A stretch of 35,836 nucleotides of DNA, taken from positions 1 through 35,836 of the IMG/VR virus record IMGVR_UViG_3300021964_000217; one strand, given 5' to 3'. A program made the position numbers and the translations under genes. How positions within the stretch are numbered: the stretch's first letter is position 1; each line of letters starts with the position of its first letter. Below the pieces are notes generated by a model. It did no database searches. It was not told the DNA's origin and saw nothing but the letters and a program-made list of their open reading frames with translations. The stretch is from a virus. Shown here one piece after another: positions 10,893-35,836 of the stretch.

Positions 10893-11482
10893 TACAACCT
10901 CGCATTAATAAATGTATTAGCAGCTAATACTTCACTATCAGTTATGCTTGCAGTATTTATGGTGTTACCTTCTGTTGCATCTACAAACCTAGCTTCAGTT
11001 AGTTTGTTTCTATAAAGATCATACATTGCTGCTGTTAATGTAGTGCTGCCTATCAAAGCATAAGCTATATCAGCAGCTATAGCCGCTTCAATCGTGTTAA
11101 TTAATAATTGATCGTATTCATTAGGATCTAATTTTCTTGCAACATAAACAAGATCTACTGAGCTTTCGTCAGTCAAAAGTTTACGCCCTTCAATTTCAAA
11201 TTTTATTTCTGGATCTGAAAGTTTCAAAACTCGCAAACAAAATGGATCTGTCGGTAAAGTGAATTGTTTTGAATATGTAAAACTTGGTGCTTCAGAGTCA
11301 GCCGCTAAAGTCTGTCTTGCTATTAAACAGTTCCAAGGATGCGCTCTAAAAACACTATCCCTTACAGATGCGTATCTTTGATTACATATTCTGCCAGCCT
11401 TACTATCTTCATTCAAAGCAAGGATAGTAGATGCACCAATCATATTTAATGCTGAGTTACATATATCAACCGCAGAAGCCAT
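10892..11482 (-). CDS. Tail tube protein A / gatekeeper (196 aa)
   Basis: The N-terminus SAVDICNSALNMIGASTI, followed by YASVRDSVFRAHPWNCLIARQ, is the conserved beginning of T7 gp11-type adaptor proteins (Cys-Asn near the start, RD near residue 40, then PW). The length equals that of T7 gp11 (196 aa). It joins portal to tail nozzle in the virion. The gene starts just downstream of an intrinsic terminator that follows the capsid and cement genes, so its expression is probably lower than theirs. Confidence 0.85.
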   Translation of the reverse strand: MASAVDICNSALNMIGASTILALNEDSKAGRICNQRYASVRDSVFRAHPWNCLIARQTLAADSEAPSFTYSKQFTLPTDPFCLRVLKLSDPEIKFEIEGRKLLTDESSVDLVYVARKLDPNEYDQLLINTIEAAIAADIAYALIGSTTLTAAMYDLYRNKLTEARFVDATEGNTINTASITDSEVLAANTFINARL

Positions 11483-11495
11483 TATTAATTCCTAT

Positions 11496-11526
11496 AAAAA
11501 AGGACAGCGCATTGCTACGCTGTCCT
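11496..11526 (-). terminator. Intrinsic terminator after capsid/cement genes
   Basis: On the minus strand a 9-bp perfect stem (arms 11501-11509 and 11518-11526, AGGACAGCG and CGCTGTCCT on the plus strand) with an 8-base loop is followed at once by a run of U residues (plus-strand A run from 11496). It lies between the cement gene and tail tube A. A partial terminator just after the capsid gene is also found in T7, where it raises capsid expression over the tail genes. Confidence 0.8.
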
Positions 11527-11532
11527 GGTTGT

Positions 11533-12009
11533 TTAATTTATAACGTATTCAATAATGAATGACATTGTACCAGCAGTACCACCAGTTGCATTAAATGTAG
11601 CTGCAACGTAGTAATGACCGCCTGGATCTGAGGAATCACCAGCTATAGTGTAAACCTCTTGACCAGCAGTATTAATATCTGCCGCTTCAAATCTTACATC
11701 TGTCATAGCAGCTGCATCAGCAACGGAGCTTGCAAAGCAATCTTCGTCTTTAACAACACCATCGCTAGTGTATAAACCTACATTAAAAGTACAGCTGCCA
11801 CCTAAAGTGTCGCTGCCTACCTTTAATGAGCTTATTCTAGCGTTAGTTGGTATTGGAGCTAACATAACAATATCATTGTCTGTGCTATCTCCAGCCGCTA
11901 ATTCGATAGTGCCTTGAGCAATTCTAGTTGTTCCAGTTAACAAACCAGCATCACTCATTGTGTATGTAGCTTCAAAATTGGCTACGAGATCAGAATTTTT
12001 TGTAGTCAT
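11533..12009 (-). CDS. Putative capsid cement / decoration protein (158 aa)
   Basis: A small beta-rich protein coded directly after the major capsid gene, with 14 bases between them. It has many Thr, Ser, Ala and Gly residues, alternating hydrophobic strands (ARISSLKVGSDTLGG, GHYYVAATFNATGGTAGT) and no helix-rich region, as expected for a beta-sandwich. In BPP-1 the neighbour of the capsid gene, Bbp16, is a cement protein of similar size; I base the call on this synteny and fold type and have no specific motif. It is read before the terminator at 11496-11526, so it should be made at capsid-like levels. Confidence 0.6.
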   Translation of the reverse strand: MTTKNSDLVANFEATYTMSDAGLLTGTTRIAQGTIELAAGDSTDNDIVMLAPIPTNARISSLKVGSDTLGGSCTFNVGLYTSDGVVKDEDCFASSVADAAAMTDVRFEAADINTAGQEVYTIAGDSSDPGGHYYVAATFNATGGTAGTMSFIIEYVIN

Positions 12010-12023
12010 TTTCTATCTCCCAA

Positions 12024-12887
12024 TTAAGCTGATTCATCACAAAGGATAGAAACCACTTTAGCTTCTTCCATTCGTGTTGCACCAAAAGTTGAACAATAAA
12101 AGACTTGAGTTGAGTAGGACTTGTCTGCTCTCTCATCAATCTTCGCCATTACGTCTTTTCCAACAGCCATTTTGATTCCATCTTCAGCCCATGCAAAACA
12201 AGTTCTGATGCTGGAAGCCACAGCTAGCCTAGTAGACATTATGAATTTAAAACCCATAAATGTATCGACTTCACCAGCAACAAGCGCTTTCACAGTATTA
12301 AAATCGCTTGATGTTATTTGTGTCGTACCAAGTAGTGCTTCAACTTGAGCTGGAGCTACCGCAATGTATCTTGGAATAGACGGATCAACAGAACCTTCAT
12401 CCAAAATTTTCTTTGCATTGATTAGCTTTGCTATAGTTAAATCAGCTGATCCATGAGCAATAATATTACCAGCAAGCATTGAAGTATCAGTGCTTCCGCT
12501 TGATCCAGTTTTTGCTGTACCAGTTGCGGCAGTAATGATTGCATCATCCATTGATCTTCCCATTGCCGCAGCAGCTGCTTGAGCATAGGTTGATGTAGGA
12601 TCAATTAACATTCTTATTTTGTCAGCATCATCAATAAGATCCGCCCACTCATAAGAATCCATAGTTACCATTCGTCTTGAATGAGGTGTATCAAGGATCT
12701 GTGTATCTTGATGCCTTGATGTTCTTTTGACCGCAGCGGTTGCACCTACCTGGTCAAAAAAGGCTTTCTCACCAGTTACAGCTTCCTCGGACACAGAACC
12801 ACGAAGCAAAGAACCTCTTTGCTGCGATAATAACTGTACGTTAGAACTAAACTGATTAACGAAAGCGGTAGTGATTTGTGAACTCAT
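12024..12887 (-). CDS. Major capsid protein (287 aa, HK97-type fold expected)
   Basis: The gene follows the scaffold and one small gene, and precedes the cement gene and a strong terminator. Features typical of podovirus capsid proteins are a helical N-arm (ITTAFVNQFSSNVQLLSQQR), EEAVTGEKAFFDQVG, SRHQDTQILDTPHSRRMVTM, a long helix with AQAAAAAMGRSMDDAIITAA and a C-terminal YSTQVFYCSTFGATRMEEAKVVSI strand set. The protein is short for the fold but has the expected N-arm, E-loop and spine order. I think it is closest to the BPP-1 (Bbp17) group, though this needs a structural comparison. Confidence 0.82.
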   Translation of the reverse strand: MSSQITTAFVNQFSSNVQLLSQQRGSLLRGSVSEEAVTGEKAFFDQVGATAAVKRTSRHQDTQILDTPHSRRMVTMDSYEWADLIDDADKIRMLIDPTSTYAQAAAAAMGRSMDDAIITAATGTAKTGSSGSTDTSMLAGNIIAHGSADLTIAKLINAKKILDEGSVDPSIPRYIAVAPAQVEALLGTTQITSSDFNTVKALVAGEVDTFMGFKFIMSTRLAVASSIRTCFAWAEDGIKMAVGKDVMAKIDERADKSYSTQVFYCSTFGATRMEEAKVVSILCDESA

Positions 12888-12949
12888 TTCACTTTCTCCG
12901 TTAGTTTAAGATTAAAATTAAAACGCTACCTGGGGAATCCAGACGTAAG

Positions 12950-13147
12950 TTATTTATTGTTGCGAGGGCCTTTGCTTATCTCGACTATTTTGCTAGTGTT
13001 TTTTTTTGAAGGGCCATTAGGCTTGTCTCCTTTATCACACCATTGCAAATACTTGTCAGCTCTATCTAGTGGATCATCTATAATCCTACCAGATCCAGTT
13101 TCGAGTACCATTCTCAAAACCTCTAGCCTAAATTCTCTTTCATCCAT
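12950..13147 (-). CDS. Small protein between scaffold and capsid (65 aa), unknown
   Basis: A 65-aa charged protein with helical N-terminus (EREFRLEVLRMVLETG) and a Lys/Gly/Pro-rich, probably disordered tail. Its ATG overlaps the scaffold stop. The same-strand position between scaffold and capsid genes supports it as a real morphogenesis gene. I recognise no family. A shadow frame on the plus strand is less plausible because the whole region is read leftwards. Confidence 0.6.
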   Translation of the reverse strand: MDEREFRLEVLRMVLETGSGRIIDDPLDRADKYLQWCDKGDKPNGPSKKNTSKIVEISKGPRNNK

Positions 13148-13983
13148 TATACCATCTCCCTATATCTCATAGCTTCATCAACGTAAAAACTATGCTGTGG
13201 ATGTTTTGCATCCCAGTAAGGTGAGCTTGGTTGTGTAAGTTCAGCCAGCTTTTCAGAAGCTTCATTAGGTGATAATCCGCCAGTTGTTTTAACACCAGCC
13301 AGTGTATCTTCACCCATTTTTTCTTTCATATACTGTCCTATATTAACCATTGTCTTAATAATTGCTGGATGATCCCCTAGTTTCATACCATTACTAAGTG
13401 TTAAATCTTCAAATTCTTCTACTGGAATAGCGCTAAAATTATCTAAAACGCCTTTTCCTACAGCCATTCTATCGTCAAATGCCTGGCCATATTCTTTTTT
13501 CAAATCTAAAGCCACCTGGTTTATTTGATCTTCAGTAACATTTGCTGATTGTTGGACCTGGTTTCCATTAAATTCATTATATTTATTTAACAAATTCTGT
13601 GCTTGGTGAGGTAACAATCCTACTTCATGCGCTGTTTTCTTGAACCAATTTACCATATCAGCGTTTTCTGATTGGCCATCTGGTAATTTATTTTCTAATT
13701 GGTAATCTTCAGCACTTGCTGGCCTACCAACTTTGTCATAAAAACTGTTCCAATCGTCTGATGTAGCAAATTTACCAGGCTTTACAACCTTATCTGCACC
13801 TATCATAGACTGTGCATTAACATAAGACTTAGCTAGTGATCCTACATCCTGGATAGTTTCTAATGATTTATGACTTCTAATATCTTCTGGAATTTCTGAG
13901 CGCCAATCATTCTGTACTGGCTGCGCAGACGGAGCTTGTCCAGCATCTACTGGAGCTTCCGCTACCTGGGCTTCTTCACTCAT
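13147..13983 (-). CDS. Scaffolding protein (278 aa)
   Basis: This is an acidic protein with an Ala/Pro/Gln-rich disordered start (AQVAEAPVDAGQAPSAQPVQ) and then DWRSEIPEDIRSHKSLETI, which recurs in phage scaffold proteins. Long helical segments follow, including FDDRMAVGKGVLDNFSAI, and the C-terminus has a short helix ending YRE-type. It lies just upstream of the capsid gene, the usual scaffold place. It should guide procapsid assembly and then leave. Confidence 0.75.
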   Translation of the reverse strand: MSEEAQVAEAPVDAGQAPSAQPVQNDWRSEIPEDIRSHKSLETIQDVGSLAKSYVNAQSMIGADKVVKPGKFATSDDWNSFYDKVGRPASAEDYQLENKLPDGQSENADMVNWFKKTAHEVGLLPHQAQNLLNKYNEFNGNQVQQSANVTEDQINQVALDLKKEYGQAFDDRMAVGKGVLDNFSAIPVEEFEDLTLSNGMKLGDHPAIIKTMVNIGQYMKEKMGEDTLAGVKTTGGLSPNEASEKLAELTQPSSPYWDAKHPQHSFYVDEAMRYREMV

Positions 13984-14201
13984 GTTTCTACTATGTCCTC
14001 TCTAGTTTTTGGTTCTTGCAGCATTGATAATAAAAATAAGACTACAGTTCGCTGCCCTTCTCTGTAGGCTGTTTCGTTAGGATCTTGTGAAAATGTAGAT
14101 CCATTAATGTGATACCTGGATTGCAAATCTTTCATTACAATCTGGCCATCTTTAGTATTTAAAAGTGTCTTGTAAGCTAGCCTAAGATCTTGAATATTCA
14201 T
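13980..14201 (-). CDS. Bbp19-like small structural protein (73 aa)
   Basis: A short helical protein: IQDLRLAYKTLLNTKDGQIVMKDLQSRYH, then SQDPNETAYREGQRTVVLFL. This pattern, a helix with a DG turn followed by an EGQR(T/N)V helix, is that of the Bbp19-like phage family found between portal and capsid genes. It overlaps portal by one base and scaffold by 4 bases. Role unknown, probably in head assembly. Confidence 0.65.
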   Translation of the reverse strand: MNIQDLRLAYKTLLNTKDGQIVMKDLQSRYHINGSTFSQDPNETAYREGQRTVVLFLLSMLQEPKTREDIVET

Positions 14202-15826
14202 TAAACAACACCTAAACCTTGTGCCGCTTTAAGCGCTGGAGCTGCATTACCAGCTGCTTCTGCTACTTGTTGAGCTTGTTGTAATTCTCTTTGCTGCGCT
14301 TGTCTTTCAGCTCGTTGTTCACGAATGGCTGCAACTTCTTCATCGCCTCTAACAGCTGTTGCTGGCACTGATAAAGCTCGTATCATATGTTTAGTTAATC
14401 CATCACTATCAACAAAATCCATGATACCTCTGTCGATTTGCATAATAGGACCTAATAACTCAAACAATCTTATTGCAGATTGTACATCACCCATGCGCTG
14501 TGCTTTAGCTAATGGACTTACATACTCTATGTTTATGTCATTATTCTGTATAAATTCTGGCGCAGTTCTAAATAATTGTTTCCTTGCTAAAATATTATAT
14601 GTTCGAGTTATAAGCGGCTGTAGTAATTCAGCTTGCAATCTTCCCAATACTGGCCCAAGTAGTCTCATCTTTTCTTCAGTACGCTGGACAACTTCTGTTG
14701 CTGTCATCTGTGGCCCTTGGCCCAAGATTAACTGGTCAACGTAGAAAGCTGATTGGATAGCTTTTCTACGTTGTTCTTCCATGTTTAAACCTAATGGATT
14801 ATTTGCGCCTATGTTTAGCGGCTCTATTCTATCCCTTGATCCAGATCTATAAAAATTAAGGCCGCCAGGTACAGTTCTTATAGGGAGTATAAAACCATCA
14901 TCTGGAACAAGTAGTGGAGGATCAACTTGTTTTTGGGCGGCCCTAATTGTTACTTCAGACATTTTATTAAGCATTTTTATGTCTGCTAAAGCGGTCATGG
15001 CTGGGGATCGACCATAACCAATTTCATAACTAGCTTTTAAATATCTTGGCGCAAGATATGGAAACTCATCAAAACCGCTTTCTGATAAAACTTTTTTTTC
15101 TTCAGCATCGTAATACACAGAAGCAAATGGTTTGTTTACAGAATCCAACCTAGTAACGTCTATATCATCCCTCGGATAAACTGCATGGACTAATTCAATC
15201 AAAGAATAAGGATCTTGTTCGCTTTGTTTTACAACTTTTTGTGGTACAAGTTCAGCTCCAAAACGATTGATGGCTGCTCGCATAGGCATTTTGAATTTAC
15301 GAAATACTGTATCAACACGGCCATATTCATTTTCTGAAACATAACACTCACCAATATGCCTGGTACTAAATCTTAAAGAACTTGGTGTAGGTTCGTCATC
15401 GCCTTCGACAAACATGATGCCAGTACCAAAAGTGATTAGATCATGGTATAATTCGTGTATTTGTTCTTGAAAATTAGAGCTGGCAAACTCTTGATACATA
15501 ACATCTTCAACACTCTCCAGCCATTCTTTAGCTTCGTCATTGCCGTCTAATATTAAATCACCAAACCTAAGACTAAACCATTTAGTGCTAGGGTTAGTAA
15601 GCATCCCATGTAATGAAGCCGACATAAGTTCTGCCGCATGAATTGCTGTACCATCAAAAATAAGTTCAGATCTTTTGTCACCAGGAGATCTAACTTTATT
15701 AATATCTGCTTTTCTTGGAACAACAAAATCTGCTATTTCTTGCCAATGCGATTCCCAAGTAACTCTTTGTGCAGCTAAACTACCAAATCGTTCATTAAGT
15801 ATTCTCGCTAAATCATCTGAAGCCAT
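14201..15826 (-). CDS. Portal (head-tail connector) protein (541 aa)
   Basis: The N-terminus (RILNERFGSLAAQRVTWESHWQEIADFVVPR) and the ASLHGMLTNPSTKWFSLRF segment are those of the podovirus head-tail connector family (T7 gp8 type). The length of 541 aa matches T7 gp8 (536 aa). Residues about 300-370 carry the wing/stem region (LPIRTVPGGLNFYRSGSRD), and the C-terminus has an Ala/Gln-rich helix, as in the crown of other portals. A dodecameric ring at the DNA entry vertex is expected, working with TerL and tail tube A. Confidence 0.9.
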   Translation of the reverse strand: MASDDLARILNERFGSLAAQRVTWESHWQEIADFVVPRKADINKVRSPGDKRSELIFDGTAIHAAELMSASLHGMLTNPSTKWFSLRFGDLILDGNDEAKEWLESVEDVMYQEFASSNFQEQIHELYHDLITFGTGIMFVEGDDEPTPSSLRFSTRHIGECYVSENEYGRVDTVFRKFKMPMRAAINRFGAELVPQKVVKQSEQDPYSLIELVHAVYPRDDIDVTRLDSVNKPFASVYYDAEEKKVLSESGFDEFPYLAPRYLKASYEIGYGRSPAMTALADIKMLNKMSEVTIRAAQKQVDPPLLVPDDGFILPIRTVPGGLNFYRSGSRDRIEPLNIGANNPLGLNMEEQRRKAIQSAFYVDQLILGQGPQMTATEVVQRTEEKMRLLGPVLGRLQAELLQPLITRTYNILARKQLFRTAPEFIQNNDINIEYVSPLAKAQRMGDVQSAIRLFELLGPIMQIDRGIMDFVDSDGLTKHMIRALSVPATAVRGDEEVAAIREQRAERQAQQRELQQAQQVAEAAGNAAPALKAAQGLGVV

Positions 15827-16954
15827 TTATAATCCTAATAAAGTTTTTCTGCGGATAGGCGCACCGCCTACAATACCTTGAGCTGAAGTTAATATTGTGC
15901 CTTTTGATCGACCACGCTTACGCTCTTCTTCTTCTTCTTCGTCATCACCAGCTCTAACAACATCCCTGGGATTTGCAGATCCAGTTGTATTGTCTGCTGG
16001 CGGATCTGTTACAGTATCGCCTGGCGGATCGTAAACATTATCATCACCGCCTAAATTATCATCACCACCATCATTGTCATCTGGTGTTGTGCCGATATCC
16101 ATACCGCCGCCACCGCCACCAGGATCACCACCTGGCTCGCCACCAATATCCATGCCGCCATCGCCGCCACCTGGATTGCCACCAGGACCAGGATCATCTG
16201 GTACTGGATCATCGTCTATATCAACACCGCCATCTGGTTCATCTGGTTCTGTAGCTGGATCATCACCAACTATAGATTCATCGTCACCTATGCCTTCATC
16301 TTGGTCAGTTCCATCGTCTGGTGTGTCTGATCCTGGTTGCCCAGTATCTGGACTTCCAACATCTGATCCACCGCCGCCTTCTTCTGAGCTTCCATCTCCA
16401 GGACCATCGTCTGGGCCTACACCTGGATCATCTTCATTGCTTGGATCGTCACCAACTACCGAGTCATCTTCTTCTGCGCCATCACCAGGATCTGGATCAC
16501 CACTATCATCACCAGGACCATCGCCAGGACCATCACCTGGTCCTACACCTGGATCATCCTCATTACTAGGATCATCGCCTACAGTTGAATCATCTTCTTC
16601 AGCACCATCGCCTGGATCTGGATCATTTCCGTCATCATTACCGCTGTCATCATCACCTGGGCCTGGATCTGGACTGCTTGGTGGTTCTGGATTATAGCCT
16701 GGATCTTCTTCTGGTGGATTATAGCCTGGATCATCGCCACCGCTATCATCGCCTGGCCCATCTCCAGGACCTACGCCTGGATCGCCAGGTCCGCTAGGAT
16801 CATCACCAACTGTTGAATCATCATCATTTCCATCATCTCCAGGGCCATCACCTGGTCCTACACCAGGATCACCAGGTCCGCTGGGATCATCACCGACATT
16901 AGAGTCATCATCGCCGCCATCATCGCCACCATCATCGCCGCCATCATCACCCAT
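15827..16954 (-). CDS. Acidic Gly/Asp/Pro repeat protein with conserved C-terminal tail (375 aa)
   Basis: I place the start at the ATG at 16954 (MGDDGGDDGG), 17 bases after the acyltransferase stop; an upstream ATG at 17050 would overlap that gene by 80 bases. Residues 1 to about 330 are low complexity, almost only Gly, Asp, Pro, Ser and Glu, with at least five copies of an S-x-VGDDP unit. A short Asp/Glu-rich stretch and an Arg/Lys patch follow, ending SKGTILTSAQGIVGG and KTLLGL. The same tail type ends the polyproline protein two genes upstream. The protein must be disordered and very acidic and may bind calcium. It is coded directly before portal. It could be a virion or head-assembly protein; function unknown. 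Confidence 0.75.
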   Translation of the reverse strand: MGDDGGDDGGDDGGDDDSNVGDDPSGPGDPGVGPGDGPGDDGNDDDSTVGDDPSGPGDPGVGPGDGPGDDSGGDDPGYNPPEEDPGYNPEPPSSPDPGPGDDDSGNDDGNDPDPGDGAEEDDSTVGDDPSNEDDPGVGPGDGPGDGPGDDSGDPDPGDGAEEDDSVVGDDPSNEDDPGVGPDDGPGDGSSEEGGGGSDVGSPDTGQPGSDTPDDGTDQDEGIGDDESIVGDDPATEPDEPDGGVDIDDDPVPDDPGPGGNPGGGDGGMDIGGEPGGDPGGGGGGMDIGTTPDDNDGGDDNLGGDDNVYDPPGDTVTDPPADNTTGSANPRDVVRAGDDEEEEEERKRGRSKGTILTSAQGIVGGAPIRRKTLLGL

Positions 16955-16970
16955 TGAGCAGTATAAAGGA

Positions 16971-17390
16971 TTATTCCAGAAGTTTATTTGGTCCAATAAG
17001 CCCTTTTTTCTGTTTAGTAGGTCTATACCAATATCCAGTTTCAATTCCATGTTCCTTATTAAAATACTGCACAGTGTCTTTCACAATAAATGAGACATGA
17101 CCAAAGGGAGCGACAAACTCAGCCAGCCATAAATTTTTACCAGATTGCCAGTATTCAGACTGCATAGTTGCGCCGTCTAATAATTTATCCAGCACTTCAT
17201 CAGACACAAAGGCGTAAGAACAAAAACCCACAAGCTTTTGTTTTTTATTACGCCAGTACCTATATTGTTTTAGTTTTAATGGTGTATCAAAGCTCTTAAT
17301 CAATAAATTGAATCTAAGTGGCCTATGAAACTTACTATGCTTAACAAGCTCCATAACCTCACCAAAATTAGGACTTCTTCGTTGCACCAC
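16971..17390 (-). CDS. HlyC-like (RTX toxin-activating) lysine acyltransferase (139 aa)
   Basis: Several stretches match the HlyC family, which transfers a fatty acyl group from acyl carrier protein to lysines of RTX toxins. FGEVMELVKHSKFHR fits the HlyC segment around its catalytic His (here His22); LVGFCSYAFVSDEV fits the central strand; YWQSGKNLWLAEFVAPFG fits the W-SG--W----APFG signature. The second catalytic position, Asp92 in HlyC, is Glu91 here. The GTG start at 17390 is chosen because it keeps the segment before His22 and overlaps the previous gene by 23 bases; ATG at 17354 is the alternative. Flanked by two low-complexity genes whose products share a C-terminal lysine-bearing tail. 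No toxin gene is seen, so I infer a phage protein as substrate. Confidence 0.75.
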   Translation of the reverse strand: MVQRRSPNFGEVMELVKHSKFHRPLRFNLLIKSFDTPLKLKQYRYWRNKKQKLVGFCSYAFVSDEVLDKLLDGATMQSEYWQSGKNLWLAEFVAPFGHVSFIVKDTVQYFNKEHGIETGYWYRPTKQKKGLIGPNKLLE

Positions 17391-17599: not shown

Positions 17600-18886
17600 T
17601 TACATTGCTCCTATACTATTAAATGGATTATAACTACTATCTGCTATTGCTTGTGGTGGCCGTTCAAAACCTCGGTTTTCCCTTACACCCACAGCAAAAT
17701 ATCTCCAGGCATCAGCCGCATGGCTGGCCCAATCATGTACTGGACTATTCCTAAAAGTCCTTAATCTTTCATTATAAGCTCGGTGATACTGCCTTAATGC
17801 TTCTAATCCAGCCTTACAATTTACTTGGTCAAACCAACAACGGCTGAGAATAAGTTGCGCAGCGTGTATGCCATCTTCAACTGGCAGCTTTGGTACAACC
17901 CTAAAATTAATTCCCAAATCGTATGAGATCTCACGGCGGCTCTTGCCAGAGCCAAGTTCTCTAACCTCAATATCATGCGGCGCATTGTGGCTTCCATAAA
18001 AATAGCCTTTACCTGTAAGTATTTTCGCATAATGCGGTAACCCTTCATTCCTGGCTTCATAAAAATCTATAACATGGATGGCTCTACCAACACTCTGTGT
18101 AAACCAAATAGCTGTGCTATCACCTATACCAAGATCCCACCAGGTATCTACTTTTTGCGATTGGTCATAGGGAACATTTCCTATGCGCCCACTTTCCTGG
18201 GCAACTTGCAGTTCTTTTCCAAAAATAGCTCCTGGTACATTAGCAACCCAGGAACATTCAAACTCTTGTTCAAACTGGTCCTCAGTCATCATCAACCTGG
18301 CAGCTTCTAATTCTTCAGCATCTACTATCTCAGTTTCGCTAGCCTTATAAACTTGTGTAAACCAATCCTTATTACTCTGCGCTGCTTCATACAAATCAAA
18401 AAAAGCATTGTGACCTCTAGGTGTTCCAATAAAGAACGCCCATCCCTTCCTATCCGATAAAGCTGGCCTTAACACTTCTGGAAATAAACTTTCTGGCATA
18501 TCAGCCATTTCATCCAGGACAGCTCCATCAAGGTATATACCTCGTAAACTGTCATAATTCTCAGCACCTAGCAGCTGTATCCTCGATCCATTAGGAAGAT
18601 CACACCTAAGTTCAGTCTCATGGAATCTTACCATAGGAACTTTACCAGCAAACTGCTTTAGATAATCCCATGCCACAGCTTTCGCCTGGCGGTATGTAGG
18701 CGCTATATAAGCGTACCTGGGATTCGTTTTATCATTAAGTATCGCATCCCTCAGTAAATGGTTTATGGCCATCACAGTCTTGCCAAATCGTCTATGGCAT
18801 ACCACAACTCCCCAGCGGTTAGTTGTAAGCTCGTTATGAAGCTTTGCCTGGAGTGGTCTAGGTGAATACGGAATCTCGATGTTCAT
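17600..18886 (-). CDS. terL: Terminase large subunit (428 aa)
   Basis: ATPase motifs are visible: Walker A variant CHRRFGKT at residues 30-37, Walker B YLDGAVLDE with Asp125-Glu126, and coupling motif FFIGTPRG at 151-158. The nuclease half has WWDLGIGDSTAIWF with Asp251 and a later DWASHAADAWRYFA with acidic metal ligands near the C-terminus. At 428 aa it is a short, complete TerL. The gene is separated from terS by 235 bases with a terminator-like hairpin. It packages DNA into the procapsid through the portal. Confidence 0.92.
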   Translation of the reverse strand: MNIEIPYSPRPLQAKLHNELTTNRWGVVVCHRRFGKTVMAINHLLRDAILNDKTNPRYAYIAPTYRQAKAVAWDYLKQFAGKVPMVRFHETELRCDLPNGSRIQLLGAENYDSLRGIYLDGAVLDEMADMPESLFPEVLRPALSDRKGWAFFIGTPRGHNAFFDLYEAAQSNKDWFTQVYKASETEIVDAEELEAARLMMTEDQFEQEFECSWVANVPGAIFGKELQVAQESGRIGNVPYDQSQKVDTWWDLGIGDSTAIWFTQSVGRAIHVIDFYEARNEGLPHYAKILTGKGYFYGSHNAPHDIEVRELGSGKSRREISYDLGINFRVVPKLPVEDGIHAAQLILSRCWFDQVNCKAGLEALRQYHRAYNERLRTFRNSPVHDWASHAADAWRYFAVGVRENRGFERPPQAIADSSYNPFNSIGAM

Positions 18887-26652: not shown

Positions 26653-26893
26653 TAAAGCTTTGTTTAATCTTATTGAAACAACACAAATATTATTTGGGCC
26701 ATGTAAGCGTAAAGCATCTGAGTATGCTAGAGTTACTAGGATGGTAAAAGATGGATCTATTAATAGTATAACAGATCGTGGCAGATACTATGTGACAAGA
26801 AAAACATTAGAAGATTTTATGGGATCTGAAGAATCTTTGAATAAAGCTCTGCAAAACTTAGACAATGTTGTAGAGCTTTATCCAGATAATTAA
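26633..26893 (+). CDS. Excisionase-like small protein (86 aa)
   Basis: Residues about 25-65 (KRKASEYARVTRMVKDG, then INSITDRGRYYVTRKTLEDFM) follow the winged-helix plan of Xis/MerR-like proteins: a recognition helix, a beta-turn wing and the closing RKTLEDF helix. It overlaps the preceding gene by 20 bases and its last 4 bases overlap the integrase stop on the other strand. Place next to the integrase supports directionality control; the call is from motif shape and context. Confidence 0.55.
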   Translation: MVLTIYNKALFNLIETTQILFGPCKRKASEYARVTRMVKDGSINSITDRGRYYVTRKTLEDFMGSEESLNKALQNLDNVVELYPDN

Positions 26894-28107
26894 AAGTTGA
26901 TTTGAGCCATATCGTTTTGCAGCTTTTGCTTTCTTGCTAAGTCTTGCATCCAGTGACCATAAGTTCTTTGTGTAATAGCAATGTCACTATGGCCCATAAG
27001 ATTTGATACAGTCCAAACATCATTGCCATAAAACTCTAGCATCTTACTTGCATAGTAATGCCTTAGATCATGCCAGGTTAAGTTCTTATTACTAAGCTGC
27101 CTAACAACTTTTTGCAGCTGTTCACGCCAGGCAGATGTATTAACCATAGTATTATACTTAGTACCAAACACTAAATGTGTTTGAGCTGGTCTGCCTTGCT
27201 TTATGTAAAGCTCTTGCAGCTCCCTCATTAAAGTATTTTTAATTGGTACAGTTCTATTAGATGTCCTGGTTTTAACTCGACCTACACCGCCCTCTACTTT
27301 AATCTTTGCAGCTTTGTTAACTGTGACCTCAAACATTTTAAAATCTATATCTTCCCAGGTCAAAGCTCTTTGCTCACCAGCTCTTAATCCAGTTGAACAA
27401 GCAAACTTATATGCTAGGACGACAGACTTAGGCAAAAGCTTTTCTATATCATGTATGAAATCTGTAGATAACTTTTCCTTTTGCGGCTTGTTCTCCAGGT
27501 CATCATTGAAAGGTCTTTCAATAACAATATCAGACATAGGATTTTCTCTAATGCAGCCACAAACTTTAGCGTGTTTCATAAGTTTGTTAAACATAGATCT
27601 CATAGCAACCAAAGTCTTGTAACTTCTCTTACCTTTTTTACCAGAATTTTCTAATGCTGGGATGATGTAGGTTTTACAATGTTGTGCAGTAAGGTCGCTT
27701 ACTTTTAAATCAGCAACAGTGGTCATACCAATTTTTATTTCTAAAAAACTTTCAAAAACTTTTTTATATGAATCAAAGTATTGCGGAAGCGGCTTACCTT
27801 TTTTCATTCTGGTATATTCTTCCCAGTAAAAATGTCTTAATGGATTATTGTCTTTGATACGTTGATCCCATTCAGCTCGCATCTCATCATCTGGAAATGG
27901 ACCAAGTAAATCTTTGATTGTCCAGGTGAAACTTTCTTGTGAATGTTTATATTCTAATTTTTTAATTTTATCTAAAGCTTGTTCAGCTTCTTCCTTAGTA
28001 TGATAGAACTTTCTAGCTCCACCTACATTTCTAAGATCTAAAAGATAACAAGCTTTGCCTTGCTTTTGTTTACTCTTTTCTAAAGATATTTTTTTATTTT
28101 GTAACAT
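26890..28107 (-). CDS. int: Tyrosine integrase (405 aa)
   Basis: Catalytic residues are in the normal order: Arg242 in TGLRAGEQR, Lys279, HDLRH with His346 and Arg349, His373 in MGHSDIAITQRTYGHW and the nucleophile Tyr383. The N-terminal 60 residues are a basic arm-binding region. I start at the ATG at 28107 because GAGGTG lies 4 bases upstream of it; the ATG at 28119 would add MRCI and has no ribosome site. It is driven by the operator-bearing promoter at 28132-28160 and sits beside attP. Confidence 0.92.
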   Translation of the reverse strand: MLQNKKISLEKSKQKQGKACYLLDLRNVGGARKFYHTKEEAEQALDKIKKLEYKHSQESFTWTIKDLLGPFPDDEMRAEWDQRIKDNNPLRHFYWEEYTRMKKGKPLPQYFDSYKKVFESFLEIKIGMTTVADLKVSDLTAQHCKTYIIPALENSGKKGKRSYKTLVAMRSMFNKLMKHAKVCGCIRENPMSDIVIERPFNDDLENKPQKEKLSTDFIHDIEKLLPKSVVLAYKFACSTGLRAGEQRALTWEDIDFKMFEVTVNKAAKIKVEGGVGRVKTRTSNRTVPIKNTLMRELQELYIKQGRPAQTHLVFGTKYNTMVNTSAWREQLQKVVRQLSNKNLTWHDLRHYYASKMLEFYGNDVWTVSNLMGHSDIAITQRTYGHWMQDLARKQKLQNDMAQINF

Positions 28108-28131
28108 TATACACCTCATAGTTATATTTAT

Positions 28132-28843: not shown

Positions 28844-29104
28844 TTAAGCTTTCCTTTTCTTGTTTTTGTTTGCAAAGTTTTTAGCTGCGGCTACAGATCC
28901 AAAACCCCATTTCTTTAATGCCAAAGCTTTCCTGGTTGGTTTGCCTTTAGCATCTTTCATAGGACCTTTCATTCCAGCGAACCTTGCAGCAAAAGATATT
29001 CGCCTAGGATTAGTGCCTTTATTTACTGGAGCTTTAACACCATAATGTTTTCTTCCAGCTGCATTTAAGCCACCTTTTGGATTCTGATATTTTTTAAGAG
29101 CCAT
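28844..29104 (-). CDS. DUF6321-like basic protein (86 aa)
   Basis: The sequence has GGLNAAGRKHYGVKAPVNKG, then NPRRISFAARFAGMKGPMKD and RKALALKKWGFGSVAAAKNF, the DUF6321 pattern common in marine podoviruses and cyanophages. It is very basic with a Lys/Arg tail. Function in those phages is not known to me. It overlaps the endolysin gene by 11 bases. Confidence 0.75.
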   Translation of the reverse strand: MALKKYQNPKGGLNAAGRKHYGVKAPVNKGTNPRRISFAARFAGMKGPMKDAKGKPTRKALALKKWGFGSVAAAKNFANKNKKRKA

Positions 29105-29546
29105 CTATTAATCCTTTGCGATAGCCATTTAATCTATCAAATGTAAGAAGTTCACCTCTAGGATCATCAGCTATAGAGCAGTGTACCCAGCCACTATTAC
29201 CACCAGTATAACATTCAAGAATGAGCTGATCATATTCCAGTTTGTCTTTTATGTAATGACAAAGATCCCAGTTAGATATACCAGGAACTTCAAAGTCTGC
29301 TGCCTGGCCTTTACAATGCTGACTTTTTTTTGAGCTACCTATAGCAATAGACAATTCTGGACAACGATAACCAGAGCTAACAGTAAAAGGTATTTTGTAA
29401 TGATCTCGTATTGGTTGCAAAATTTTTTCAGCTAAAATTTTTAGATAATATATTTCATCTGCACCAGGATTATTATTTATATCTCGGCGTTCAGCTGTTT
29501 GACTTTTAATTAATTCTTTAATTGAAAAATTATTTGATAACATCAT
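29094..29546 (-). CDS. M15-family peptidase, endolysin (150 aa)
   Basis: Zinc ligands of the M15 D-Ala-D-Ala carboxypeptidase family are visible: SKKSQHCKGQAADF with His77 and Asp84, and SGWVHCS with His122. SSGYRCPELS is the usual motif before the first zinc site. The length is that of stand-alone M15 endolysins. It should cut peptide cross-links of peptidoglycan for lysis. No signal peptide is seen; the holin-like gene immediately upstream in the same operon suggests holin-dependent release. Confidence 0.85.
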   Translation of the reverse strand: MMLSNNFSIKELIKSQTAERRDINNNPGADEIYYLKILAEKILQPIRDHYKIPFTVSSGYRCPELSIAIGSSKKSQHCKGQAADFEVPGISNWDLCHYIKDKLEYDQLILECYTGGNSGWVHCSIADDPRGELLTFDRLNGYRKGLIDGS

Positions 29547-29617: not shown

Positions 29618-29995
29618 TTATTTTTTTTTAAATTTGTCTAAACCTTTTAATCCAAGGCCAGCAAGGATCGTTACATACAAAACATTCTGATACCAATCTG
29701 GTAACTCATTTAATCTTTGAAAGCCTTGTTGAACTATATCTTCCATACCTGGAATAAAGACCAAGATTACTGGGATTAAAACTATTACAGTAATGATCTC
29801 ATCTTTGTATGAGTTTTGTGTACTTTGCGCCATGATAAGTTCCCACTTGCTATCATGTGTCGCAGCAGTTTTCATAACCTCGGCTTCTGCTTCAGCCTTT
29901 GCTTTAGCTACAGCTCCCTTTGCTTTAGTCTGCTCTATCTTGGATTCCATAAAGCTAGATGCAAGGGATGCAAGCGGTGTTAAAAATTGTAACAT
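29618..29995 (-). CDS. Holin-like membrane protein (125 aa)
   Basis: The first half is an amphipathic helix with an Ala/Lys/Glu run (TKAKGAVAKAKAEAEAEVM). The second half has two hydrophobic segments (about residues 67-84, IITVIVLIPVILVFIPG, and 102-117, NVLYVTILAGLGLKGLD), and a basic tail. Phage proteins of this layout often lie just before endolysin genes. The holin role is inferred from topology and neighbours. The last GATC site before the site-free block falls inside this gene (29795). Confidence 0.6.
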   Translation of the reverse strand: MLQFLTPLASLASSFMESKIEQTKAKGAVAKAKAEAEAEVMKTAATHDSKWELIMAQSTQNSYKDEIITVIVLIPVILVFIPGMEDIVQQGFQRLNELPDWYQNVLYVTILAGLGLKGLDKFKKK

Positions 29996-29997
29996 AA

Positions 29998-30315
29998 TTA
30001 TTTCCTATTCATAAAAGCTGAAGCTCCCATGTAAGCAGCTACGATACCACCACCAGTAATATAAAATAGGTTTGATATATCTGCTAAAGCTTCTACTCTT
30101 GGTATCTCAACAACAAACATAGCAGCAGTGAACAATCCCATAGCAACAAGGCTTGCTGTTGCCATACGTCTTTGCGCTCTTTGTTTTCTTAAATCATGCT
30201 CAAGTTTTTTTATTTCGGTGACATGGCTAAGTTCTTCATCAGATACAATGCCGTCACCATCTTCGTCATACTCAGCATAAATAGATTCTTTTTGTAATTT
30301 CTTCTGAGCCATCAA
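29998..30315 (-). CDS. Membrane protein with EF-hand-like loop (105 aa)
   Basis: The EF-hand-like loop is EYDEDGDGIVSDEEL, with Asp17, Asp19, Asp21 and Glu28 at the calcium positions. It is followed by a basic coiled segment (EIKKLEHDLRKQRAQRR) and two hydrophobic segments (about 52-70 and 82-100). It might anchor in the inner membrane and sense or bind calcium; no function is known. First gene inside the site-free block at 29.8-33.9 kb. Confidence 0.7.
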   Translation of the reverse strand: MMAQKKLQKESIYAEYDEDGDGIVSDEELSHVTEIKKLEHDLRKQRAQRRMATASLVAMGLFTAAMFVVEIPRVEALADISNLFYITGGGIVAAYMGASAFMNRK

Positions 30316-30509
30316 TACACCTTTACTTTTTCTTTATCCACAAATGGTACGAGCTTACATATACACTCATATGTTTGTGGCTTATCGTCTTTCATAAAAG
30401 TTTGTTGGTTGAGTTTATCTTTGTAATCTACGCAATGATTTACGTTTTGGAAGTAAATACCACCAGTAGCAATACCATTCATAGTGCAAGCAAGTAGGAA
30501 AGCTGTCAT
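30312..30509 (-). CDS. Small secreted or lipoprotein-like protein (65 aa)
   Basis: It begins MTAFLLACTMNGIATGGIYF, a short hydrophobic start with Cys8 that could be a signal or lipobox. The rest has Cys residues (VNHCVDYKD, YECICKL) that could pair in the periplasm. Overlaps both neighbours by 4 bases. It may be a spanin-type or superinfection protein, but there is no proof. Confidence 0.55.
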   Translation of the reverse strand: MTAFLLACTMNGIATGGIYFQNVNHCVDYKDKLNQQTFMKDDKPQTYECICKLVPFVDKEKVKVY

Positions 30510-30976
30510 ATGATACCTTTCTTTTTGGCTATGATTGCTAGTACTGTGACAACACCTGATAATAAAGCAGTAATTAGTATAGCCAGTACAACTTTCATTA
30601 CTATTTCTTTTATCTTTTCTTTACGTTTCTCTGCTTTAATACGAGCATCTCTTCTAGCTTTGCGTGCATCAGCACAGTAAGATACATAGTCATTGTACAA
30701 ACCTGCTCTGCCGTATAGCTGCATGAACTCACGGAGCTGTTCGTTCTTAACTCGTATCTCTTCCAAAGCCATAAACTCTTCTAGGTCATTGTCTTCTTTA
30801 CCTAGAAAGTTAGTCCAAATACTGTTCTTTTTTTTGTGTAAATCTTGTTTGAGTTGTTCTTCAGCACTAACAAACTTGGAGATTGCTGCACCTGCTGAGG
30901 ATAGTTCTCGACCATTTTGAATGGTCTGTTTGATAATTGCAAAAGCACTATTAGCGACCACTAGCATTTCTAGCAT
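30506..30976 (-). CDS. Coiled-coil protein with C-terminal membrane anchor (156 aa)
   Basis: An N-terminal hydrophobic region (MLEMLVVANSAFAIIKQTI) is followed by helical, charged stretches (SKFVSAEEQLKQDLHKKK, LEEFMALEEIRVKNEQLREF, ARKARRDARIKAEKRKEK) and a clear C-terminal transmembrane helix (KVVLAILITALLSGVVTVLAI). I recall similar proteins from marine T4-like phages but know no function. Possibly virion or lysis related. Confidence 0.65.
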   Translation of the reverse strand: MLEMLVVANSAFAIIKQTIQNGRELSSAGAAISKFVSAEEQLKQDLHKKKNSIWTNFLGKEDNDLEEFMALEEIRVKNEQLREFMQLYGRAGLYNDYVSYCADARKARRDARIKAEKRKEKIKEIVMKVVLAILITALLSGVVTVLAIIAKKKGII

Positions 30977-30980
30977 AGTG

Positions 30981-31142
30981 TCACCTCATTAATAAAGTAG
31001 CCATCATAATGATTAGAGTTCCTGCTGTAGCTATCATGATGTGTTCAATGCGTTTGATGCGTAGGATAGTTTCTTTCCATCTCTCAGCACAGACAGCCTC
31101 ATGTGTATCTATCTGTGCCTTTACATCAGATGCCTTAACCAT
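30981..31142 (-). CDS. Small membrane protein (53 aa)
   Basis: The frame from ATG 31142 to TGA 30981 fits between its neighbours, overlapping the upstream stop by 8 bases. It begins MVKASDVKAQIDTHEAVCAE, continues RWKETILRIKRIEH and ends in a hydrophobic helix (IMIATAGTLIIMMATLLM). One transmembrane helix is expected. Function unknown. Confidence 0.65.
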   Translation of the reverse strand: MVKASDVKAQIDTHEAVCAERWKETILRIKRIEHIMIATAGTLIIMMATLLMR

Positions 31143-31365
31143 TAACAACCTCGTCATCTTCTTTGTCTTCTGACTTCAAAGATTCAATTAATGAGTTGGT
31201 AAAAGCATTTTGTGCTACAGTAATCTGGTCAAGTTGAAACTTCAGATTAGATGCTTTAGCCTGTAAGTCTTTTATCTGATTGATAAAGTAGGTTTGGTCT
31301 TGAGATAAATCTTCTTGATTGTACTCTTTACCATCAATAGTAATTACATTGTTCTGTTCAGACAT
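31135..31365 (-). CDS. DUF6447-like protein (76 aa)
   Basis: The pattern ITIDGKEYNQEDLSQD, followed by a long helix (YFINQIKDLQAKASNLKFQL, then QITVAQNAFTNSL), fits DUF6447. These occur beside fibre genes in cyanophages and other marine phages. The start is ATG at 31365, overlapping the upstream TAA (TAATG); a TTG six bases earlier is less likely. Probably linked to fibre function, but unproven. Confidence 0.65.
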   Translation of the reverse strand: MSEQNNVITIDGKEYNQEDLSQDQTYFINQIKDLQAKASNLKFQLDQITVAQNAFTNSLIESLKSEDKEDDEVVNG

Positions 31366-31676
31366 TACCAAGATACTCCGCTTGCTGTTGTTGGGTTAGC
31401 CATTGCATCTATCTGACTAGCTATTCCTGCTTCTATTGATGTAACTTCATCTGCACCAAGTGCATCTTTTGCCCATCCAATAGCCTGTGTCTCAGTTATA
31501 TCTGCATATGGTGTTGGTGTTCCTACAAGTGTTACACCGACTGTGCCATAAGCTGACCCTATGTTACCATCTGCGTCTTCATCAGATGCTCTCCAGTGCA
31601 ATATAGTCACAATATCTGTGTTATCTCCCTGCACTAAGTCTCTTTCCATATTTGCGATTGTCCAAGTTACTGCCAT
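31365..31676 (-). CDS. DUF7936-like protein (103 aa)
   Basis: The start MAVTWTIANMERD, then TILHWRASDEDADGNIGSAYGTVG and the closing GWAKDALGADEVTSIEAGIA with ASGVSW are those of the DUF7936 family. It is found downstream of tail fibres in marine phages. Beta-rich first half and one helix. Function unknown; perhaps a fibre accessory. Confidence 0.7.
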   Translation of the reverse strand: MAVTWTIANMERDLVQGDNTDIVTILHWRASDEDADGNIGSAYGTVGVTLVGTPTPYADITETQAIGWAKDALGADEVTSIEAGIASQIDAMANPTTASGVSW

Positions 31677-31677
31677 T

Positions 31678-31977
31678 TTATTCTCCTATATTACTAGCAT
31701 CATCACGTTGTTTACGATTTTGATAGTCGCTTCTCGCTGTTACAAGTGCAACAAAGTCTGCTTGATTAGATGGTATTGGGTCTGTAAAACTACTGTCATT
31801 CATTAACTTTGTAGTCCACTCTTGTTGAAACCTTTTCCAACAGTTGTTTATTTTGCCATCAATAGCACCTTGTATCCAATCATCTATCCCTGCATTATCT
31901 GTGTCGTTATACAAATCATTAGATAAAATCTTCTGTTGTATATCTGTTAATGTTACTGTCTTTGTGTGGTCTGCCAT
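31678..31977 (-). CDS. Small fibre-linked protein (99 aa)
   Basis: It begins MADHTKTVTLTDIQQKILSN, continues LYNDTDNAGIDDWIQGAIDG and ends QADFVALVTARSDYQNRKQR. Proteins of this kind follow the fibre gene in many marine phages. It starts 38 bases after the fibre stop. Could be a tail fibre chaperone; no proof. Confidence 0.65.
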   Translation of the reverse strand: MADHTKTVTLTDIQQKILSNDLYNDTDNAGIDDWIQGAIDGKINNCWKRFQQEWTTKLMNDSSFTDPIPSNQADFVALVTARSDYQNRKQRDDASNIGE

Positions 31978-32014
31978 TTTATAACTCCTTTATGTTACGT
32001 TGTTTCACTTTGGC

Positions 32015-35000
32015 TTATGCTACTAAGTAGCCTGTAAAATAAGACTCTGCATCTAAATCAGTTTGGACTGTTCCAGTTGCTTGATATACTTTAACAATCG
32101 CAGTATCCCCTGCATCCATATCTGCCAAAACAGACACATCTAAATTATGGTAGCTTAAGTCTTGGCTGTAACCTCTTGCATCATGAGTATGATAATATGA
32201 CCTATTAGAAGTGATAAGTTGTGTTTGATAATATGATGCTGCTGAGTCAATATTATTGAATAATACTAATACATTTAATTGATATTTTCCTGTTACAGGT
32301 GCAGTAAATCTGTATGTAGTATTGTTATAATCACTATTTTGGTCATATAATTCTGTTTCAAAAAGAACTGTAACTTGTGTAGCAGTTGCAATGTTAGATT
32401 GTTGACTAGCTACTTTAGCACAAAAAGCAGATTGATATGGCATAGTTACATGACCTGCTGAGTCTATTTTTATTCCATTTGGTGTGGTTACATTACCTCC
32501 TGCTCCACCATATGTTCCTGCACCTATTTTCAAACCATTTGCATCTGCACCAAACCAAGCACTACCTGCTGTTGTATTTGTCCTGCCTATCTTTAATTGA
32601 ACACCACCATCTAAATACTCTATGTCTAATGGAGATGCAGGACTACTAGTACCAATACCAACATTGCCACCATTAGGATTAAGCAATAAAGGATATTCAA
32701 CTCCTAAACTCGTCTGGTTTGTAACCTGCAACCAAGCTCCCGTTGCTCCTGCATTACCTATATCTAAAACAGCATTAGAACCAGACCCACTTGTGCGTAT
32801 ACGACCATATGTTTGAGTAGTTCCTGACGTAACTGGCAGTCCAGTTCCTGAACCAGCAATATGTAAGTTTGTTGCAGGGCTACCCGTCCCAATACCAACA
32901 CTGCCATTTGAAGTTATTCTAAATCTTTCTCCTAATGAACCAGCTAAGTGTCTAGTTGATACTACAAAATCTGCACTATTACTTGAGGTAGAAGTGCTAT
33001 TAGAAGTTCTTACTGCTCCTATTCTTACAACATCATGTCTTGAGCCACCCTTAAAGTTAATAGCCGATGAAGTATTATTTGTGTCATCTGTGTTATATAT
33101 TCCAAGACCACCAGTAAAATCATTTGCATTAAAGTCTGTACCTGCGTCTGAGTATGCAATTACAGTAGTCATATCAGGGTCTTCATCACCAATACCCACG
33201 TTGCCACCATTGGGATTAAGAGCAATTATACCTACTCCACCATTGCTTATACTTTCAATAACAAAAGGAGCTTGACCATTATAATCTTTCCAAATATCAC
33301 CGTAGTAATTAGATACGTCTTGATTGTTATCAGTAAACCTAATTCCTTCGTTAATTCCATTTACTGTTAGAGGTGCTGTTGGCGAACCTGTACCAACCCC
33401 CAATCGCTCAGCACTAGCATCCCAATAGAATTTTGGTGTTGTACCTGTGTCTTCGTAGAAGCTAATGTCGCCAGAATTATCAATAAGCATTGATGTTTTG
33501 CTTTGGTTTATGAATTTTGTTTGACCACTAGAATTATTTGCTATTGTTAGTTCATCTGTTGTACCTGACCCTTGTAGATAAAAATTAGAAAAACCTAATT
33601 GTAGCTTTGATGTAAAAGAATCTGGAAATGTAAGCAATAACTGCCTATAACTATCCGTGCTAACAGTCAACCCATCAGCCGTGACAGTACCATTAATATC
33701 AACATTCTGACTAGCATCAATCGTAATAGCATCTGTTCCTGCTGTTACAAATTTTAATATATCTGTGCCACCTCTATAGATACCAGTGTTAGTGTCGCTT
33801 GCAAAACCGATAGAAGGAGTGCCTACTGCACCATTCGGTAACAGTAAATTACCAGTCATTGTATCGCCAGTAGTCTGTACAAAGCCAGAACTATCTATTG
33901 CTGCATCTTGCCAGGCAGATCCAGTGTAAACTTTTAGAGTATTGCTAGTTGTATTGAAGTACAAATCACCAGCATTTAAAGCATCACCATCATTATCAAC
34001 AGATGGATCAGAACTCTTAGATCCTAAGTATGTATCATCAAAAGTATCAGCACTAGCAGCAGCTGCTGCTGCACTAGCTGCTGCATTGGTTTCTGATGTT
34101 GAAGCATTACTTTCAGATGTAGCTGCATTTGTTGCAGATGTTGAAGCTGCTGATGCTTGATTTGTAGCAGTCGTAGCACTTGTTGCTGCGTTAGTTTCTG
34201 ATGTACCAGCATTTGTTGCACTAGTTGCTGCATTTGATGCAGATGTGCTTGCGTTTGACTCTGATGTCGCTGCATTAGTAGCAGAAGTGCTTGCTTCACT
34301 AGCTTTTGTTGTCGCTGTAGTTGCTGAACTTGCAGCAGATGTTGCAGAGTTAGATGCGTTGGTAGCTGAAGTAGCAGCGTTTGTCTCTGATGTAGATGCG
34401 TTTGATGCACTTGTTGCAGCGTTTGTTTCACTTGTAGATGCGTTACTCTCGCTAGTTGCTGCATTGCTTTCACTAGTTGATGCTGCACTTGCACTATTAG
34501 CTGCATTAGTTGCACTTGTAGCTGCTGTTACAGCATCTACTAATAACTCGAAATGGTCTGTGTCTGTTAGTAAATCACCTACAACAGCATCTGCAACACA
34601 GATATATACGTTGTTTAATTGTGCAGCCGTGGTTGATTTAATGATATCTCTTACAACATATGTTTCTGTTGTCGTTGTTGTATCAGTGCCTTTGTATGTG
34701 CCTAATTCTTGTGTTACTGATAACTCACCAGAAGTGTCAAAGGCCAGGATTTTATTTGCTCTATCTGTTGCACCAACTGTAAATTCTGGCGATGTCATAG
34801 TATTAGTCTTTGATAGTTTAATAGTTCTATCAACTTCTTCTTGTAACTCTTGTGTTATAAAAGTTAATCTATCTAAAGCATCTTCATGGGATGTACTAGG
34901 AAACGGATCATTTTCAACATAGTCAGTTCCCTGGGATTTTGTAAGTGTTCTTAATATAACTACAGTTTCACCAGACTGAGGCCTTTGATCTGTTACAGAA

Positions 35001-35239: not shown

Positions 35240-35836
35240 TATCTTACCTCAAAAATGTTTTCTAAATTAGGAGATCTTCTTGGTGATGTATTTCCTGGCT
35301 TCCACCAGTAATTTTGACCATATTGCTTTTTGTATCTTTTAACTGTTCTTCTCATTTTACTTTTTGCTTTTGGATCAGCCATAATGTTAAGCTGGTCTAA
35401 AACACCTCTTTCAAGAGCAAGCCTGGCGTACCATAAAGAACTACCTGGAGTGTATTTACCAGCAAATCTAACTAGGTCATTTGCTAAATTAACATCATCA
35501 CCTTTAATAGTTTTATGTATATTCCCAGCGCTCATTTTAATTAAATCATCGCCAAAACCAATAACTGGACCAGCTATTGTTTGACCTAAACTTCCACCAT
35601 ATCTGTTATAATCTGAGAATAAAAAATCACCATATATACCCAGGCCACCACCTTGTAAAAAAGCAGCTGTCCAAAACTCTGCATCTGTCATAGGCCGTGG
35701 ATCTCTACCTTTAGTCATTTCTTTTAATTGCAAAGCTAGTGCGCCCATAACACTTGATGATATTAAAAAATCAGCCATATAAGAGCCTTTACGTTTTGCT
35801 CCTTGCTGGGTTACGCCTCTTATTAAATGAGTGTTA
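35239..35836 (-). CDS. Large internal virion / ejection-type protein, C-terminal part
   Basis: This is the end of the 824-aa protein whose beginning is at 1-2026; the frame is open to the right edge and continues in phase through the terminal repeat. The ATG at 35778 (MADFLISS) is an internal methionine, not the start. The tail is Arg/Lys-rich (KSKMRRTVKRYKKQYGQN), like the basic ends of DNA-contacting internal virion proteins. It ends one base into the fibre start codon. Confidence 0.75.
   Translation of the reverse strand, partial: NTHLIRGVTQQGAKRKGSYMADFLISSSVMGALALQLKEMTKGRDPRPMTDAEFWTAAFLQGGGLGIYGDFLFSDYNRYGGSLGQTIAGPVIGFGDDLIKMSAGNIHKTIKGDDVNLANDLVRFAGKYTPGSSLWYARLALERGVLDQLNIMADPKAKSKMRRTVKRYKKQYGQNYWWKPGNTSPRRSPNLENIFEVR
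35688..35836. repeat. Terminal direct repeat, right copy (contig closure)
   Basis: These 149 bases duplicate 1-149 with C at 35814 in place of T at 127. See the left copy: it shows that the window contains the complete circularised phage genome plus the overlap. Confidence 0.95.

Follow-up and report, generated by a model that had tools for sequence, protein, structure and literature searches.

We analysed a 35,836-bp viral record (IMG/VR IMGVR_UViG_3300021964_000217, here called the window) with a view to a block near its right end that carries neither GATC nor CCWGG sites, and which an earlier note, made from the letters alone, had read as an imported receptor-binding module. The phage genome in this record is near-complete, and its two ends share a 149-bp overlap (99% identity); this direct overlap (positions 1-149 and 35688-35836, one mismatch) fits a circularly closed or terminally redundant genome. 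A podovirus-type structural cluster, nearly all on the minus strand, runs from TerL to the tail fibre, and the gene order fibre, capsid, portal, TerL is similar to that of HTVC035P. The best isolate matches of TerL were HTVC010P-type pelagiphages, at 55-57% identity only, which suggests a distant relative of that group. The genome is that of a marine temperate podophage, which appears distantly HTVC010P-like.

The features of the locus are listed in Table 1. Residues ~1-446 of the fibre are its native N-terminal anchor and a Ser/Ala/Thr-rich stalk, and residues 447-1074 are a foreign distal part, the junction being placed from the depth profile of homologues. The distal part ends in a C1q-like head (residues 938-1073), the presumed recognition domain of the module. 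Besides the fibre end and a 99-amino-acid partner, the block holds a DUF7936 protein and four small proteins, some of them membrane-spanning. The DUF7936 assignment in the earlier note agreed with Pfam; its DUF6447 gene was not found inside the block.

The 99-amino-acid protein had no Pfam or PHROG match, and members of its family matched marginally only. Its AlphaFold2 model was all helix (predicted local distance difference test score [pLDDT], 90.5), and a structure search returned no PDB fold match and one weak, uncharacterised viral match. In 131 of 146 places, all sampled through these same genes, its gene came behind a C1q-type fibre end, with a median spacing of 43 nt; the protein was 60-96% conserved in most sampled relatives. 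The helical family was seen nearly always directly behind C1q-ended fibres in marine phages of different families. By analogy with the fibres and chaperones paired in Alteromonas phages (PMC10579305), the protein is likely to be a fibre chaperone or a tip-associated protein.

Table 1. Features of the window, with the evidence for each (G001 to G025 are our labels for phage contigs compared with the window)
Feature	Position	Strand	Evidence
Putative imported host-recognition cassette (best estimate of exchanged segment)	30312..33905	-	Word-signature core 30506-33773; homologue alignment starts; fibre depth collapse; 96-97% identical proteins in unrelated backbones
Swap point in fibre linker, GSAWQDAAIDSSGFVQTTGDTMTG	33840..33950	-	Homologue depth collapse; GATC density step in 41 related fibres
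Native backbone part of GATC-free gap	29799..30311	.	G001 nucleotide identity 96-98% to ~30.08 kb; backbone-like log-likelihood ratio
Tail fibre, 1074 amino acids	32015..35239	-	PHROG tail-fibre matches; Pfam C1q E 3.5e-11
Small helical protein, 99 amino acids, partner of C1q-ended fibres	31678..31977	-	Position behind C1q fibre ends; AlphaFold2
DUF7936 protein, 103 amino acids	31365..31676	-	Pfam PF25590 E 8e-24; 92% identical in G007, 96% in G022
Small protein, 78 amino acids, PHROG 21153	31135..31371	-	80% identical in GATC-free G007
Small membrane protein, 58 amino acids	30981..31157	-	~89% identical in G023
Membrane-anchored protein, 156 amino acids, PHROG 32327	30506..30976	-	97% identical in G023/G024, 72% in G001
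Small protein, 65 amino acids, hydrophobic N-terminus, at left junction	30312..30509	-	95% identical in G025, 89% in G001, ~50% in G003-G005
Endolysin	29094-29546		
Integrase	26890-28119		
TerL	17600-18886		

The window contains 179 GATC and 148 CCWGG sites. GATC occurs at 29795 and at 33918 with none between (29799-33917 free), and CCWGG at 29748 and at 33911 with none between (29753-33910 free), exactly as the earlier note had placed them. The GATC gap of 4,123 bp was the longest in the whole genome and exceeded the second longest (886 bp) by a ratio of 4.7; if 179 sites were scattered at random, so long a gap would arise with a probability of ~5 × 10−8. The rest of the window predicted 23 GATC in the block (Poisson P value = 8 × 10−11), and a second-order Markov model built on the block predicted 14, with zero in none of 1,000 simulations. 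When synonymous codons were shuffled with protein and codon usage held fixed (500 permutations), the block acquired 10.9 ± 2.4 GATC, never fewer than 4, against 0 observed. GATC is thus depleted in the block beyond codon and amino-acid composition. For CCWGG, the same permutation gave 1.0 expected against 0 observed, and 37% of the permutations also had none. The shuffled-codon control proposed in the earlier note therefore left the GATC absence standing but not that of CCWGG, which was not significant and was rejected as independent evidence. The contrast in CCWGG between block and backbone stems from a three-fold excess in the backbone, whose coding sequence has 91 sites versus 29 expected under codon permutation (z = 18.5). 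GATC outside the block was slightly above expectation; the recipient phage does not avoid it.

The block also differed from its surroundings in its other words. Tetranucleotide frequencies in 30312-33860, counted without GATC, correlated with those of its own backbone at r = 0.58, against a minimum of 0.75 and a mean of 0.84 for backbone windows (n = 31). The block correlated at r = 0.86 to 0.88 with the contigs G007, G010 and G012, to which backbone windows reached at most 0.69. The k-mer profile, suggested earlier as a check, thus placed the block with GATC-free phages (r ≈ 0.87) and not with its own backbone. A two-state hidden Markov model (HMM), with models trained on other phages and GATC and CCWGG words masked, marked 30506-33773 as foreign at all three penalties, and as the sole such segment at the two stricter ones. 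Block proteins written in backbone codons scored ~+2 to +3 per kb as a control; the observed score was +49, and native genes scored −25 to −104.

Direct matches pointed the same way. Positions 31166-31687 (the DUF7936 gene and its neighbour) were 90% identical in nucleotides to G007, a 57,957-bp contig with zero GATC and no further DNA match to the window, and were also matched in G008; positions 31641-32455 were 76% identical to G007 and 85% identical to GATC-free G018. These donor-type phages (G007/G008 and G018) had no other DNA match to the window beyond the 85-90% block pieces. Whole donor-type contigs of 58, 51, 38, 31 and 24 kb contained 0 GATC versus 183, 157, 122, 90 and 79 expected; GGCC, CCWGG and GCWGC were also avoided in GATC-free contigs, to varying degree, and no match to the Dam family was found in five of them. 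Marine phage contigs of 31-58 kb with 0 GATC (90-183 expected) came from at least three unrelated lineages (L261-L263, L254-L256 and L259-L260).

Relationships within and outside the block were incongruent. In G001, the closest backbone relative (TerL 99%, portal 99% and gene 29998 96% identical), the 156-amino-acid protein was just 72% identical and the fibre tail unrelated; in G023 and G024, TerL was 52% identical, yet the 156-amino-acid protein was 97% identical. Likewise, the protein labelled P4 (96%) and the DUF7936 protein (92%) were shared with G007, a phage of unrelated backbone. The nearest relatives were uncultured marine podo- and siphophage contigs, and homologues of the 30506-30976 gene lay in Roseobacter phages, with one weak match in a Pelagibacter myophage, in place of the T4-like phages and cyanophages named in the earlier note. 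These results indicate that a 3.4-kb stretch with the fibre tip and several small genes very probably came from unrelated, GATC-free phages, the missing GATC being the visible mark of its origin. The earlier reading, in which the block is imported and brings with it the distal fibre part that presumably binds the receptor, is thus borne out by signature, HMM, incongruence and junction.

The right edge of the block lay where it had been predicted, in the linker behind GSAWQDA. Homologous fibres numbered 75 at 33951, 18 at 33876 and 0 at 33801, so that fibre synteny collapses at 33.80-33.95 kb, and the right edges of the GATC and CCWGG gaps were within ~110 bp of this drop. The left edge had been placed at 29.8 kb, near the holin-like gene; it lies instead at ~30.3-30.5 kb. 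Alignments of relatives start at ~30300 (41 loci) or at 30480-30500, and identity to G001 falls from 96-98% up to ~30.08 kb to 66-72% at 30.48-31.06 kb. Gene 29618-29995 was 97-100% identical in siblings, and the protein of gene 29998-30315 was 96% identical in G001 and 99% in G003, siblings that have normal GATC. The stretch 29.80-30.30 kb is therefore native DNA that happens to be without both sites. One clean transfer with its left edge at 29.8 kb was therefore rejected, gene 29998-30315 being native. Since its left, middle and right pieces have different best matches, the cassette is a mosaic from at least two sources rather than the single acquisition first supposed.

The same region differed sharply between close relatives while its flanks were syntenic (G001 and G003-G005, with the depth collapse described above). 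G001 was 88% identical through 31687 and then continued into an unrelated fibre tail, and G003-G005 were syntenic with the window up to ~31 kb. Foreign-signature sequence occupied the slot in G001 (29296 to contig end), G005 (13108-17340) and G020 (9313-13503), each with a different fibre tail; these siblings' modules were poor in GATC or CCWGG, with CCWGG-free gaps of 4.0 and 4.2 kb in G005 and G020. More distant phages (G021-G025) had a GATC gap in the same module. The region is a slot for foreign sequence and not the product of one event. Across 41 related fibres, GATC density was 3.5/kb before the linker and 1.3/kb after it, being lower after it in 35; among 31 dereplicated loci, the codon-permuted ratio to expectation was 1.14 in the fibre head and 0.56 in the tail. 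Four phages that share the same fibre head (L301, L304, L305 and L332) were GATC-free throughout, so homologous exchange at the linker could bridge both groups.

We hold with considerable confidence that the block is an exchangeable, horizontally swapped host-recognition cassette with a signature typical of GATC-free donors. Homologous or illegitimate recombination would have replaced the DNA between the fibre linker (~33.85-33.95 kb) and the small-gene cluster (~30.3-30.5 kb) with DNA derived from unrelated marine phages that are GATC-free genome-wide, and the block would consequently bear the donors' word signature, zero GATC included. The native anchor and stalk would hold the fibre on the virion, the acquired distal part, tipped by the C1q head, would presumably bind the receptor, and the small helical partner encoded just downstream may help the distal fibre in a chaperone-like role. 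The C1q tip makes a change of host range plausible. The simplest cause of the GATC loss would be restriction by the donors' hosts, which presumably cut at GATC. Temperate phages purge restriction sites less.

Several observations weigh against this account. GATC is present in the cultured pelagiphages that are related to these families: HTVC035P, HTVC027P, Lederberg, CRP-3 and CRP-212 have normal GATC and HTVC026P about half, and as donors these were rejected. No host or restriction enzyme was identified for recipient or donors; scanning genomes for the terminase returned contigs in metagenome-assembled genomes (MAGs) and remote prophages only. (The closest of these, a contig in a MAG labelled Euryarchaeota, L435, carried a terminase 70% identical to that of the window phage and 0 GATC in 16 kb; it is probably a phage contig binned into that MAG.) The amino-acid composition of the fibre gives part of the signature difference, as the recoded control above indicates. 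The fibre middle (33.50-33.65 kb) had no nucleotide homologue, and an exact-match search with it found no other contig. Finally, no second IMG/VR contig held the exact block or the left junction, which leaves a single assembly as the basis for the precise junctions.

This last point would also fit an assembly chimera of two phages in the metagenome, but the fibre frame is unbroken for 1074 codons across the junction, siblings are built alike and break at the same points, and the record overlaps itself at its ends, which makes a chimera very unlikely. We give still less credence to there having been no import, with fibre tips and small membrane proteins lacking GATC through their amino-acid and codon make-up. 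Composition does account for part of the drop in GATC, since codon permutation leads one to expect 4.2 sites per kb in the backbone and 2.7 in the block; composition alone is nevertheless ruled out by the permutation, in which amino acids and codons are fixed, and it sits poorly with proteins 96-97% identical in unrelated phages. Just as hard to credit is a loss of GATC through selection on this region alone within the phage, such as selection against methylation-sensitive control. Depletion that is local and recurs at the same slot would suit it, but such selection would leave other tetranucleotides unchanged, whereas the whole word signature is foreign and other phage families carry the block sequences too.

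A more serious possibility, although one short of probable, is that the module circulates among phages of many hosts and is constantly purged of type II restriction sites while the backbones are not, so that the lack of GATC is a standing property of a shared pool and not the mark of one recent donor. We compared modules and flanks in 34 dereplicated phages with normal flanks, whose loci around the 156-amino-acid gene had been chosen by way of the module's own genes, a choice that favours its pool. Under codon permutation, GATC reached 50/174 (0.29) of expectation in the modules and 481/511 (0.94) in the flanks; against composition, the ratios were 0.20 and 0.99, and 16 of the 34 modules had no GATC at all. 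GGCC, CCGG, TCGA and GCGC were also lower in modules than in flanks, and CATG, ACGT and TGCA were little changed. The siblings G001, G005 and G020, with other site-poor foreign modules in the same slot, fit such a pool too, but many fibre tails of GATC-rich phages, such as L287, L322 and L340, have ordinary GATC, and filtering is hard to separate from repeated recent import from GATC-free phages. We would extend the idea only tentatively to marine host-recognition modules at large, as a common pool swept clean of GATC, GGCC, CCGG and TCGA, since a copy that passes through many hosts would survive only if it had lost the sites; if true, phages with ordinary genomes carry one restriction-proof island exactly where host range is set.

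The backbone had site preferences of its own. CCWGG was over-represented in the sister contigs G003 and G004 (224 and 240 sites versus ~26 expected from base composition) and in L013, L016, L039 and L047, and was absent from L056, L057 and L059, which belong to the same TerL family as the window phage. AGCT and GCWGC were likewise over-represented in the backbone, and no C5 methylase was found in the window. CCGG and CGCG were missing from the backbone (17 and 14 expected under codon permutation), so the window phage avoids another set of sites than the GATC-free phages do. A long Asp/Gly/Pro-rich, low-complexity open reading frame adjoining the portal gene (15827-17050) had 23 GATC and 27 CCWGG per kb, arranged repetitively; its G+C, at 52%, is the highest in the genome.

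A missing four-letter word thus helps in tracing gene transfer: with no host needed, it connects the fibre tip of one phage family with GATC-free donors from others. If the depletion in the 34 related modules reflects restriction filtering, a single locus couples the evolution of host range to restriction-modification. The conserved association between C1q-ended fibres and a helical protein as yet unnamed offers a handle on an undescribed fibre partner. The part worth pursuing is that restriction sites are depleted in this module across the population.

Metaviromic islands of marine phages, including HTVC010P-like pelagiphages, comprise a variable host-recognition region with C1q-domain proteins (PMC3909814). 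The cassette resembles them as a variable region of related podophages with a tail fibre, C1q and conserved flanking genes. Those islands were defined by low recruitment of virome reads, and that paper uses none of the words restriction, oligonucleotide and tetranucleotide. In the cassette, the C1q head is fused to the fibre, and the foreign signature points to GATC-free phages. As in the Alteromonas phages A5, V22 and P24 (PMC10579305), a fibre and a downstream partner gene are common to unrelated backbones; the Alteromonas partner is a DUF4376 chaperone whose function was shown (PMC10579305), whereas the partner here belongs to a helical 99-amino-acid family that has no Pfam entry and goes with C1q heads. 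In a study of restriction-site avoidance, each of the 46 phages with cognate enzymes in their hosts was low in GATC (PMC6286503); in the cassette, too, GATC is under-represented beyond chance. That study considered genomes as a whole, whereas in the window avoidance is confined to one very probably imported module in a genome otherwise slightly richer in GATC than expected.

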